This document shows, one piece after another, positions 17,889 through 29,575 of a stretch of 36,198 bases of DNA. How positions within the stretch are numbered: the first letter of the stretch is position 1; each line of letters begins with the position of its first letter. The DNA comes from an uncultured Flavobacteriales bacterium (GTDB lineage Bacteria; Bacteroidota; Bacteroidia; Flavobacteriales_D; Crocinitomicaceae). The position numbers and the translations under genes were made by a program. The notes under the pieces are model-generated. The model had not been told where the DNA came from, made no database searches, and worked only from the letters and a program-made list of their open reading frames with translations. The stretch is from positions 1-36,198 of the forward strand of contig CAIRMS010000019.1 in assembly GCA_903879765.1 (NCBI GenBank), written 5' to 3'.

Positions 17889-18572
17889 TTAGATTTCATT
17901 GAAATTAGCAGCTGTATTTTTCCAATCTCCTGTTGTACCAGGTCGAACAAGTTGAATCGTTTGATAACCAACCATATCAGCAGCTGTTAACTCCTCCTTG
18001 ATGTCCGATAAAAACAGTATTTGATTTGGTTCTAAATCTAATATTTCAGCAATGGCTTTATACGTTTCTGAATCTCGTTTTGCCCCTGTCTTTGTATCAA
18101 AGTAATTCGACAGGTGTTTACTCAAATCACCGTAGCAACTAAATTGAAATAATAATTTTTGTGCATGAATGGAACCGGAAGAAAAGATTCCAATTTTCAA
18201 TCCATTCGTTCTCCATTTATTGAAACAGGTAGGAACATCATCGTACACGTGTCCTTTGATGTCTCCATCTTCATATGCTTTTTTCCAAACAAAACCTTGA
18301 AGGGTTTTCAAAGGAGTCACCTTTCTATCCGCACGACTCCATTCGTCGAGGTAAGCGATGACTTCTTCCGTTGTCGTAATGCTTTTACCTTCTTCCTCTT
18401 TTACCAATTTGATGACTTGAGCAAAAGATTCTTTCACCTCACTAACTTGTGCCATTTTAGGCAATACTTGAATGTGCTCTCTAAAATATGGGAACAATTC
18501 ATCCACAACAAAAGAGATAGAAGTTGTGGTTCCTTCTATATCACATAAAATATACTTAATTTGATTATCCAC
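17889..18572 (-). CDS. mtnC: Acireductone synthase (enolase-phosphatase E1)
   Basis: HAD family; ILCDIEGTTTSISFVVDELFPYFREH, GIFSSGSIHAQKLLF, FLSDIKEELTAA. Confidence 0.94.
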   Translation of the reverse strand: MDNQIKYILCDIEGTTTSISFVVDELFPYFREHIQVLPKMAQVSEVKESFAQVIKLVKEEEGKSITTTEEVIAYLDEWSRADRKVTPLKTLQGFVWKKAYEDGDIKGHVYDDVPTCFNKWRTNGLKIGIFSSGSIHAQKLLFQFSCYGDLSKHLSNYFDTKTGAKRDSETYKAIAEILDLEPNQILFLSDIKEELTAADMVGYQTIQLVRPGTTGDWKNTAANFNEI

Positions 18573-19110
18573 GATTTGGAAAATTAAACGCTAAAAACTC
18601 ATTTTCTTTGCCAGAGCCGGTGTATTCAGGCACCCACCCAGACATGTCTATAAAAATACGGATGGCTTTTACAAATGGATTTAATTCACCTGCATCAAAC
18701 CAATGTTTTGTTCCGGCAGGGACAGAGATTAAATCACCCCGCTCGCACAATAAATTAAAAACCTCTTCATTTTCAAGATGAAACCAAAATAGTCCTTGTC
18801 CATCGACGAAGAACCTAATTTCATCCTCTGAATGCGTATGTTCCGCTAAAAACTTTGCGCGTATTGCCGCATAATTCTCCGTAGAGGAATTGATGGAAAT
18901 GACATCTGCCGTTTGATATCCCCCGCTTTTCATAAATGGATCAAGATCGGAATGATAGGCTTGAAGTATTTCTTCTGAACTTGCTGAATCATCAAATACA
19001 GTAGCACAAAACCACTGATCAAAGAAAATTCCACGTTGGTTCATGAAAGACCTGATTTCTTGCGGATCCGTCAACTGAACGTGTTTATTTGGTATGGATA
19101 AAATTGCCAT
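18565..19110 (-). CDS. mtnD: Acireductone dioxygenase (cupin)
   Basis: EHTHSEDEIRFFVDGQGLFWFH, VPAGTKHWFD; 8-nt overlap with mtnC. Confidence 0.94.
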   Translation of the reverse strand: MAILSIPNKHVQLTDPQEIRSFMNQRGIFFDQWFCATVFDDSASSEEILQAYHSDLDPFMKSGGYQTADVISINSSTENYAAIRAKFLAEHTHSEDEIRFFVDGQGLFWFHLENEEVFNLLCERGDLISVPAGTKHWFDAGELNPFVKAIRIFIDMSGWVPEYTGSGKENEFLAFNFPNRG

Positions 19111-19691
19111 CAGATTTGTTCTAATTCACATTCACAAAGATAATCCAAGGTTTCCAAATGTCGTTTCGCTGAAAACAAATTTTCTCCCCAGGCATAGGTT
19201 CCATGTTGACGAATAATGAAACAATGCTGCTTCATTTCCGACAATCGTTGAGGAAGTATTTGTTCAAAATAACTCATTTCCTGTGCGTTTTCAAAAATTG
19301 GGATTTGAAGCGTACAGTCGTGTGTAGTAACTCCTGAAAATCCTTTCTGTAATTCATAATTCCCTACAGTGAAAACTTTATCATTTTTCATTGAAATCAA
19401 TACTGGATTTTTAGAATGGCTATGCAGAATAACTTGAGCTTCAGGAAAAAGGCGATAGATAAGCACATGAATCATTGTTTCATCCGATGGTTTCACACCG
19501 ATGTATGGCGCTTGAACACATCCATTTTCATCAATCGCAATAAAATCCTCTGCTTGGAAGGTTGATTTATCCACTCCAGAACGGGAAACCCAAATTTGAC
19601 CATTCTCCCTAAATGAATAATTCGTTGAAGTAGCAGGTGACCATCCCTTCACATGATATGCTCGAATTGTTTCAGCTAATTTAACTTTCAT
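19110..19691 (-). CDS. mtnB: Methylthioribulose-1-phosphate dehydratase
   Basis: Class II aldolase-like; GWSPATSTNYSFR, VSRSGVDKSTF, ILHSHSKNPVLIS, IRQHGTYAWG. Confidence 0.94.
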   Translation of the reverse strand: MKVKLAETIRAYHVKGWSPATSTNYSFRENGQIWVSRSGVDKSTFQAEDFIAIDENGCVQAPYIGVKPSDETMIHVLIYRLFPEAQVILHSHSKNPVLISMKNDKVFTVGNYELQKGFSGVTTHDCTLQIPIFENAQEMSYFEQILPQRLSEMKQHCFIIRQHGTYAWGENLFSAKRHLETLDYLCECELEQI

Positions 19692-26603: not shown

Positions 26604-27779
26604 TTATGCTTGCTCAAAGGAAGCTTCTTCTTTATCTTTTTCTAAATCTTTTGCAAAGGCTTGTATTACCCCAATCGAAACGCAAGCCATAATTAATGCG
26701 GATCCACCCATTGCTAAAAACGGCATGTTTTGACCTGTTACTGGAAAGACACCTGTACAGACCAACATGTTGATACTTGCCTGTGTCAAGAGATGAATGC
26801 CAATTCCGAGTGAAACATACGATTGAAAAAGGTCTGTTGTTTTTAAGGCGATTTTGATGATTCTAAATAACAAAATCATATACAAAAGAGCTAAAAACGC
26901 TGCCATTAAGAAGCCAAATTCTTCCACGAACGTTGCGTAATAAAAATCGGCATACGCTTCCGGAAGGTATTCTTTCAATTTTCCGTCACCCACTCCCTGT
27001 CCGAAAAAAGAACCCACATGAATCGCTAATTGCGCATTTTTTGCTTGTGCATTCGCTTGAGCGGTTTTGATATCCTGAGAATCGCTATCCATGCGATTTG
27101 TTAGGCGGTTTTTCCAGGTGTCGAATCGCGGCAAGAGTCCTACTTCCGGAAAGGACATATGGAAAACCACTGCTAGTGTAATCATAAGAATTCCAGCTCC
27201 GCCCATGGTTAATAATTTCCCCCAAGGAACACGTCCTATGTATAACATTGCCATACACAACATGAATAACATGGCTGATGTTGAGAAGTTATCTTTTAAA
27301 ATCAAGGAACAGATAACCACAATTGGAATCATCAAGGGAAGAATTCCATCTTTCCAACTTGATAACTTATCTTTCTTTTTAACTAGGATTCTACTGACAT
27401 AGATAATCAAAGCCAATTTGGCGAAATCCGAGGATTGAAAGGTAAGTTTCACAAACGGAATTCGAATCCACCGTCCGGCACCATTGACCTCTGTTCCAAA
27501 AAACAAGGTAAACACTAACAATGCGATGGCGACGTAATAGGAGAATTTTGCTAATTGACTAATGTATTTTGAGTTGACGCGGTGAATGGCAAACATGGAA
27601 GCGAAGCCAAGTACCACGTAGATTAAATGTTTTAATAGGTATTGAAACGGTGATCCACCATCGATTTTCACCAAAATTGGAACAAAACTATAAACAGTCA
27701 CAAGAGAAAAAGACATCATGAGGATGGTAATTATCCAAATAACAGGATCGCCTTTCAGGTATTTTAAATAATCTCTCAT
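26604..27779 (-). CDS. ftsW: SEDS-family peptidoglycan glycosyltransferase FtsW
   Basis: Multi-TM; GAGRWIRIPFVKLTFQSSDFAKLALI, LPEAYADFYYATFVEEFGFL, TGQNMPFLAMGGSALI. Confidence 0.95.
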   Translation of the reverse strand: MRDYLKYLKGDPVIWIITILMMSFSLVTVYSFVPILVKIDGGSPFQYLLKHLIYVVLGFASMFAIHRVNSKYISQLAKFSYYVAIALLVFTLFFGTEVNGAGRWIRIPFVKLTFQSSDFAKLALIIYVSRILVKKKDKLSSWKDGILPLMIPIVVICSLILKDNFSTSAMLFMLCMAMLYIGRVPWGKLLTMGGAGILMITLAVVFHMSFPEVGLLPRFDTWKNRLTNRMDSDSQDIKTAQANAQAKNAQLAIHVGSFFGQGVGDGKLKEYLPEAYADFYYATFVEEFGFLMAAFLALLYMILLFRIIKIALKTTDLFQSYVSLGIGIHLLTQASINMLVCTGVFPVTGQNMPFLAMGGSALIMACVSIGVIQAFAKDLEKDKEEASFEQA

Positions 27780-28216
27780 AGCAATTGAACCAAATTTAGG
27801 TAAGCTGCAATTTTCAAGGAAACATATTCACTATCGTTTTCCGTACAGGTAAACAGCAAGGTTCCCGGTGATTTTAATTCTGTCATTAGTCCGTTCAGCA
27901 CATCTTGGATGTCAGCAAACTCGTTTTCCAACATAAAACCAGTTCGATTCTCTCCGAATGAAAAAATGCTTTGAAACTTTCTTGAAAAAAGTGGATTGGA
28001 ACTTAAGACAGCTTCGATTTCTGCAGGATTCCCAACCCAAATGATTTCAGTAGGGATTGAATTGATAAAATTAACCAGCGCATTTTGCTCGGGCTGCATC
28101 CATGTAAACACATCAATTCCTTTCAATTTTCCATGTGCACGCATGCTTGAATTCTCGACTTTACGTGAAAATTCATTGGTTGAAATGGATTCAATATGAC
28201 TGTGTTTATCCTGCAT
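27776..28216 (-). CDS. Uncharacterised 146-aa protein inside the dcw cluster; possible degenerate MurD C-terminal-domain-like protein
   Basis: ORF packed 15 nt after the murD stop with a 4-nt overlap into ftsW; no catalytic motif recognised; weak by-eye alignment to the C-terminal domain of the adjacent MurD. Confidence 0.8.
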   Translation of the reverse strand: MQDKHSHIESISTNEFSRKVENSSMRAHGKLKGIDVFTWMQPEQNALVNFINSIPTEIIWVGNPAEIEAVLSSNPLFSRKFQSIFSFGENRTGFMLENEFADIQDVLNGLMTELKSPGTLLFTCTENDSEYVSLKIAAYLNLVQLL

Positions 28217-28231
28217 TCTCTCCCTGATAAA

Positions 28232-29575
28232 TTATAACATTCGGACCGCTTGCTTAAACTGATTTCCTCTGTCTTCGTAGTTTTCGAATAAATCAAAACT
28301 TGCACAAGCAGGAGAAAGCAAAACCGTTTCGTCTTTTTTAGCCAAGCGGTAACCAAAAGCAACTGCTTCCATTGCTGATTTTGCTTCAACAATCGTTTCC
28401 ACAACTCCAGAGAATGCTTCAATAATTTTATGATTATCCTCGCCCAAGCAAACGATTGCTTTCACTTTATCGCGCACAAGTTGTGTCAATTCAGCATAAT
28501 CATTTCCTTTATCAACTCCACCTACAATCCAAACGGTTGGATTTTCCATGCTTTCCAAAGCAAACCACGCAGAATTGATATTCGTTGCTTTCGAATCGTT
28601 AATAAACTCGATTCCATTCACTTTTGCAACGAACTCCAAACGGTGTTCCACATTCGTAAAGTCCTCTAAACTTTCGCGAACAATATCCTTACGGATTTCT
28701 ACTAATCTTGCTGCGATCCCTGCGGCAAGAGCGTTTTGGGTATTGTGCTTACCCTTTAAAGCTAATTCATGTATTGACATGGCGAATTGTTGGTTTATAT
28801 TGATTATTAGTTGTTTGTCTATTGCATATGCTCCAGGATTTTGTTCTTCCTTCAAAGAGAAGGGAGCAAGATTTACTGGAGGATTTCTTTTTTTCATTTC
28901 ACTTGAAATAAGGGTGTCATCCGCATTGTAGATGAACCAATCTTCGTTTGTTTGATTTTGAACAATGCGAAATTTCGAGTTCACGTAATTTTGCATGTCG
29001 TAATCGTATCGATCTAAATGATCGGGTGTGATGTTCGTCAGAACAGAAATATTGGCATGAAAATCATGCATATCATCGAGTTGAAAAGAACTCAATTCAA
29101 TCACGTACCACTCATGGTCGCCTTCCGCCACTTGTTTCGCAAAGCTGTATCCAACATTTCCTGCTAATCCAACATCTAAACCTGCTTTTTTCAGAATGTG
29201 ATGTGTTAACATTGATGTAGTGGTTTTGCCATTACTTCCGGTAATACAAATTGTTTTACCCGTCGAATAGTATCCTCCAAATTCAATTTCCGAAATAACT
29301 TTTATTCCCTTTTCACGAATGGCCTTCATGACGGGTGTTTTTTCAGGAATTCCCGGAGATTTTATAATTAAATCAGCACTTAAAATTCGCTCCATAGAAT
29401 GTTTCTCTTGTTCCCATTCTACATTGAGTTTATTTAATTCATTCTGAAAAACACCTTTAATCACTGAAAAATCAGAAACAAAAACATTCCATCCTTTTTG
29501 GACAGCCAACACAGCTGCGCCAACACCGGATTCACCAGCGCCAAGAATGACCATATTTTTATTTTGACCGTTCAC
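28232..29575 (-). CDS. murD: UDP-N-acetylmuramoylalanine--D-glutamate ligase
   Basis: VILGAGESGVGAAVLA, ITGSNGKTTTSML, EFINDSKATNINSAWFAL, LLSPACASFDLFENYEDRGNQF. Confidence 0.97.
   Translation of the reverse strand: MNGQNKNMVILGAGESGVGAAVLAVQKGWNVFVSDFSVIKGVFQNELNKLNVEWEQEKHSMERILSADLIIKSPGIPEKTPVMKAIREKGIKVISEIEFGGYYSTGKTICITGSNGKTTTSMLTHHILKKAGLDVGLAGNVGYSFAKQVAEGDHEWYVIELSSFQLDDMHDFHANISVLTNITPDHLDRYDYDMQNYVNSKFRIVQNQTNEDWFIYNADDTLISSEMKKRNPPVNLAPFSLKEEQNPGAYAIDKQLIININQQFAMSIHELALKGKHNTQNALAAGIAARLVEIRKDIVRESLEDFTNVEHRLEFVAKVNGIEFINDSKATNINSAWFALESMENPTVWIVGGVDKGNDYAELTQLVRDKVKAIVCLGEDNHKIIEAFSGVVETIVEAKSAMEAVAFGYRLAKKDETVLLSPACASFDLFENYEDRGNQFKQAVRML

Follow-up and report, generated by a model that had tools for sequence, protein, structure and literature searches.

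The dcw cluster is among the best-studied bacterial gene clusters, yet in the stretch of DNA analyzed here (the window, 36,198 nucleotides from an uncultured member of the Crocinitomicaceae) it holds, between murD and ftsW, an extra gene for a 146-residue protein. The gene is apparently undescribed; no account of a gene in this slot was found in the literature searched (open-licence PMC papers). A first-pass annotation, made from the sequence alone, regarded it as an orphan, possibly a paralogue of the MurD C-terminal domain without catalytic function, derived from the adjacent murD by partial tandem duplication and coupling MurD with the SEDS/FtsW machinery. What is this gene, where did it come from, and what might its product do? 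The features that bear on these questions are as follows.

26604..27779, minus strand: ftsW, 391 aa, with a start codon that overlaps the stop of the ORF (ATGA)
27776..27779, minus strand: ATGA junction of ORF stop and ftsW start, kept in 55/60 genomes of the genus
27776..28216, minus strand: 146-aa ORF, very probably a degenerate stand-alone MurD domain-3 paralogue (ORF call, conservation, predicted fold, profile homology)
28100..28132, minus strand: ORF residues 29-39, GKLKGIDVFTW, the most conserved stretch in the Crocinitomicaceae family
28217..28231, minus strand: spacer between murD stop and ORF start, 15 nt, in frame (5 codons)
28232..29575, minus strand: murD, 447 aa, with every tested catalytic residue present
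28235..28684, minus strand: MurD C-terminal (third) domain, approximately residues 298-447, the paralogous region

A conserved gene in the murD-ftsW slot

As the first-pass annotation described, the ORF is real and packed as a gene of the cluster. It begins 15 nt after the murD stop codon, which ends at 28232, and at its other end a 4-nt overlap joins its TGA to the ftsW ATG; the plus strand offers no open frame for it, with stops throughout 27776-28216. Pfam yields no match to the protein, even at an E value of 10, and neither does NCBIfam; the curated Mur ligase C-terminal profile PF02875 is among those that do not match. Elsewhere in the window, a minus-strand trio of genes outside the cluster on its ftsZ side (17889-19691) appears by eye to be of methionine-salvage type (enolase-phosphatase, acireductone dioxygenase, and dehydratase).

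The slot was readable in 81 of 86 genomes of the genus, the other five being affected by contig ends or a murD that was not found. A slot gene of mostly 140-156 aa is present in 60 of the 81, and in 21 murD and ftsW are adjacent without it, mostly 5-29 nt apart (one of these ftsW genes is called from an early start). Because a slot gene of similar length is conserved in 60 genomes, the ORF is not a chance frame. Its dN/dS in 23 close pairs is 0.04-0.51 with a median of approximately 0.15, higher than for MurD (approximately 0.07) and FtsW (approximately 0.03) yet far below neutral; the ORF is under purifying selection. The comparison with close relatives proposed by the first-pass annotation thus finds the gene open, conserved, and constrained. 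Genomes lacking it fall in three subclades of a MurD and FtsW tree (FastTree, rooted with other genera of the family, the outgroup being chosen from carriers), for which the simplest reading is that the gene was apparently lost three times.

Beyond the genus, the ORF family turned up in about a dozen Crocinitomicaceae genera when 299 genomes of the order were searched with an HMM. In loci fetched from other genera of the family it lies directly before ftsW in 18/18 and has murD directly upstream in 16/18. It is absent from many Crocinitomicaceae genera in the loci read; given this and its absence from three subclades of the genus, the ORF is dispensable and its role not essential. One genus (g28) has a 146-151 aa slot gene (L277-L279) whose best match to the family is not significant (E 0.007, a value obtained without shuffled controls), though it has a similar N-terminal AR motif. 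Close relatives of the ORF are also encoded on two MAG contigs titled Chryseobacterium gleum and Polynucleobacter meluiroseus (L147, L148), which are probably mislabelled.

Fold and homology

The AlphaFold model of the ORF protein, based on a 57-member alignment, has a pLDDT of 83 and a pTM of 0.77. Among PDB entries, Foldseek ranks the isolated Mpl C-terminal domain first (3mvn, E 6e-4) and MurE second (7d27); MurC and FolC structures follow, mixed with isocitrate and isopropylmalate dehydrogenases at weaker E values. The structure search that the first-pass annotation had suggested therefore returns Mur ligase third domains as its top two matches, and the predicted fold is that of Mur ligase domain 3.

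Single-sequence searches with the ORF protein gave no convincing match beyond the genus, and alignment-based searches were needed; a single-protein locus search returned close relatives and one doubtful 36-residue match in a Bdellovibrionaceae MAG. In profile comparisons, also proposed earlier, the Crocinitomicaceae family aligns with MurD colinearly with its third domain (score 34.9, E 1.5e-4; maximum of shuffled controls 18.8). The probability of this direct match is modest (14 to 52), so the relationship leans on intermediates. One such intermediate, L142, is a 169-aa protein from another family whose gene adjoins ftsW, and it is hit by the ORF family HMM at E 1e-5 and also aligns with MurD residues 290-444 at E 2e-31 and 34% identity. 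As a query, it opened the search for stand-alone genes of the MurD C-terminal domain (MurD-C). These copies match MurD with a probability of 100, and the Crocinitomicaceae family matches them with a probability of 96.4 (E 1.2e-9, score 58.9; maximum 17.3 among 30 column-shuffled versions). The ORF family and the stand-alone copies appear, from these profiles, to share common descent. With fold, profile scores, colinearity, and same-slot intermediates in agreement, the suspected kinship with the MurD C-terminal domain is borne out, and the ORF is almost certainly a MurD domain-3 paralogue.

Stand-alone copies across Bacteroidia

Seven other families of the order (f2, f3, f4, f5, f8, f10, and f11) have stand-alone MurD-C genes of approximately 160-176 aa in the murD-ftsW slot, which is what a survey of Flavobacteriales dcw clusters, as the first-pass annotation recommended, was to look for. 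A further 15 Bacteroidia families have such a gene in the slot, in 19 of 20 fetched loci that were chosen for having extra MurD-C matches. At the class level, at least two MurD-C matches were found in approximately 69 of 286 matching genomes, a count that does not include eroded copies like the window ORF. No stand-alone copy was present in the loci read from families f9, f13, f15, f28, f40, f47, f52, f57, and f65, and no extra copy in approximately 60 genomes of the phylum outside class Bacteroidia; the one double match there appears to be a single MurD divided between two contigs. The window ORF belongs to this set of single-domain MurD-C genes between murD and ftsW, and the label of orphan does not fit a gene whose closest kin, in other families, are genes for the MurD C-terminal domain alone.

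The murD model TIGR01087 matches the stand-alone copies only at positions 292-441, its last third, with E values down to 2e-37, and the most eroded f5 copy still matches at 5e-6. Against PF02875, for which the cut-off is 28.4 bits, f3 homologues score 32.2 and 25.6 bits. Two tandem stand-alone genes occur between murD and ftsW in f2, f4, f5, and f8 (L185, L186-L189, L190-L191, L192-L194), and the second f5 tandem copy, with 145-146 aa, approaches the window ORF in its degree of erosion. In G173 the copy is split into two ORFs of 72 and 87 aa (L217, 1779-2279), reflecting decay or a sequencing error. Short slot ORFs in family f45 (coding-strand coordinates L287 538-909, 123 aa; L292 430-876, 148 aa, with a start called inside murD) resemble the copies marginally, with a best E of 0.0014 obtained without shuffled controls.

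Erosion of the active site

Residues are numbered as in E. coli MurD, taken from a PDB alignment. MurD keeps Arg302, Asp317, Lys319, Thr321, Lys348, Ser415, and the aromatic residue at 422 almost throughout the genomes read; position 348 is His in one case, and position 322 is Thr in another. We take the tested residues, from Arg302 to the aromatic 422, to contact ATP and D-Glu. The order's stand-alone copies retain Arg302 (36/43), Asp317 (42/43), Thr321 (36/43), and the SP motif; Lys348 is mostly lost, and Asn322 is replaced by Asp in 29/43. Among the copies the catalytic site is anything from almost whole to eroded, whereas that of MurD itself remains intact.

Erosion has gone furthest in the Crocinitomicaceae family, for which residue positions hinge on a merged alignment: Asp317 is replaced by Trp in 74/78 sequences, Thr321 and Phe422 align to gaps in 78/78, and the 422-426 segment and the ERG segment are gapped. 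Arg302, Lys348, and Ser415 are not among the commonest residues at their positions, and that of Lys319 is mostly Asn or Gln, with Lys in four sequences. Other residues are conserved in the family (Gly29, Lys30, Gly33, Asp35, Phe37, Trp39, and Pro55). ORF residues 29-39 align with the MurD strand that runs into NDSKATN, and Trp39 takes the place of Asp317. At 146 aa the ORF corresponds to domain 3 only and does not have the three-domain MurD architecture with its ATPase domain. With a conserved Trp in place of Asp317 and further active-site positions gone, the ORF protein cannot be a ligase alone and is, judged from these positions, non-catalytic. The first-pass annotation had noted that the DSKATN and SPACASFD motifs are missing and considered catalysis unlikely; the family alignment confirms the former, and the Trp at 317 and the gap at 321 uphold the latter.

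Origin of the copy

In a 93-row tree that left out the Crocinitomicaceae genes, the window ORF included, nearly all stand-alone copies fall together, apart from the MurD of the genome that carries them, and two changes are needed between MurD and copy; the copies evolve fast and the E. coli branch is long, so that long-branch artefacts are possible. This separation of copy from resident MurD makes the duplication look old rather than recent, with later losses. Only the f24 copies fall among MurDs, possibly through a separate, younger duplication. These copies (coding-strand coordinates L261 1776-2324, L262 1751-2299) have a near-full set of MurD catalytic motifs, with one listed position differing. 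The profile scores and the common slot suggest that the Crocinitomicaceae genes descend from stand-alone copies. A local tandem duplication of the window murD, as envisaged by the first-pass annotation, therefore does not fit the gene: the nearest relatives lie elsewhere, and the tree separates copies from own-genome MurDs.

Function and alternative explanations

The full explanation that we prefer, a stand-alone, catalytically dead MurD domain-3 paralogue with an accessory role, we hold to be about evenly balanced between right and wrong. Long ago in Bacteroidia the 3′ third of murD would have been copied, along with the linker ahead of HRLE, and the copy would have stayed between murD and ftsW. 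Copies would mostly have lost the lysine of GGxDKG (Lys348 in E. coli), with DSKATN often becoming DSKATD, and in Crocinitomicaceae the entire active site would have gone while a new conserved patch, GKxxGxDVFxW...P, was gained. The ORF protein, whose translation is probably coupled to that of FtsW, may then act as an accessory by binding other proteins: it would dock on the precursor enzymes of the cytoplasm, MurD or else MurG/FtsW, and so adjust or localize the supply of precursor. That it is a non-catalytic accessory of the MurD/MurG/FtsW machinery is plausible but slightly short of an even chance.

In genus g48 the copy remains beside ftsW although other genes separate it from murD (the contig ends before ftsW in G157, and murD is on another contig in G199). 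Genes of a lipoprotein-like family (VVHNGFLQKRKYKKGY) adjoin the copy there on the murD side (L142, L206, L211, L213, L224). The slot, the ATGA junction, and the g48 gene order point to a putative link that involves FtsW no less than MurD. The coupling of MurD to SEDS/FtsW suggested by the first-pass annotation would be compatible with this gene linkage. A model of a read-through MurD-ORF fusion has a pTM of 0.51, with the MurD third domain itself poorly modelled and parts of it below 50 pLDDT, and shows no confident interface. It is tempting to speculate, more tentatively still, that the copies form an undescribed, class-wide Bacteroidia wall component, a MurD third domain retained in this slot from early in the history of the class and repurposed as a non-catalytic subunit that would tie precursor synthesis to the polymerase FtsW.

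Other roles for the domain have to be weighed against an accessory one. Part of the nucleotide or amino-acid site could serve as a small-molecule sensor that reports levels of ATP, D-Glu, or UDP-MurNAc-peptide to MurD or FtsW. The less eroded copies, which keep Arg302, Asp317, Thr321, and the SP motif while losing Lys348, would suit such a sensor, but the Crocinitomicaceae family has lost these positions, with Trp at 317 and both Thr321 and the ERG segment gapped, and we regard this role as unlikely. The domain might instead replace the third domain of MurD in trans during catalysis, for which the nearly full motif set of the f24 copies could be cited; MurD, however, retains the tested residues nearly everywhere, with two single-position exceptions, and the window family does not have them. 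This idea was dropped on account of MurD keeping its own catalytic residues and has next to no weight.

The gene may also be a decaying remnant without current function that is leaving the operon, as the three losses in the genus, the absence from many genera, the split copy in L217, and the fast sequence divergence would allow. Against this stand dN/dS values mostly of 0.1-0.2 in close pairs, a frame open in 60 genomes, newly near-invariant residues (Gly29, Lys30, Phe37, Trp39, and Pro55), and carriage by about a dozen genera, which make it improbable. An explanation in which the ORF serves solely to couple the translation of murD to that of ftsW, its protein being irrelevant, accords with the ATGA overlap in 55/60 genomes. 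Genomes without the ORF nevertheless have murD and ftsW directly adjacent, with mostly 5-29 nt between them, and selection acts on the amino-acid sequence of a protein whose predicted fold is kept; this explanation is very improbable. Scarcely credible, finally, is an unrelated Rossmann-like protein whose likeness to MurD is coincidental: the weak direct family-to-MurD match and the want of a Pfam match would agree with it, but same-slot intermediates, a profile E of 1e-9 to them with shuffled controls far lower, and Mur ligase domains as the best structural matches of the model do not.

Comparison with known systems

Among described systems, the ORF protein resembles MurD (E. coli structures 1uag and 2jff), being homologous to its C-terminal domain, with the same predicted fold and an adjacent gene. 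It differs in the absence of domains 1 and 2, of the tested catalytic and D-Glu residues, and of the C-terminal ERG segment. The Mur ligase C-terminal domain (PF02875), represented by 3mvn of Mpl, is the best structural match of the model, and some intermediates pass the PF02875 cut-off; the ORF, in contrast, has no PF02875 match and is a natural single-domain gene rather than part of a ligase. MurG as a Mur ligase scaffold provides a precedent for cytoplasmic Mur enzymes assembling into a complex close to the membrane (PMC6420597), although MurG is a glycosyltransferase and the passages on it describe no MurD-domain paralogue. A precedent for inhibition of MurD by a binding protein is MigC of Acinetobacter baumannii, a MurD-inhibiting GTPase that binds MurD and lowers its activity; unlike the ORF protein, it is a zinc-binding COG0523 GTPase rather than a Mur ligase domain (PMC12208494). 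Less worn copies in the same slot across much of Bacteroidia suggest an overlooked accessory part of the wall-building machinery. The series from near-intact to dead, with position retained, offers a testbed for whether pseudo-ligase domains regulate peptidoglycan precursor supply, and its members are candidates for a link between MurD and FtsW.
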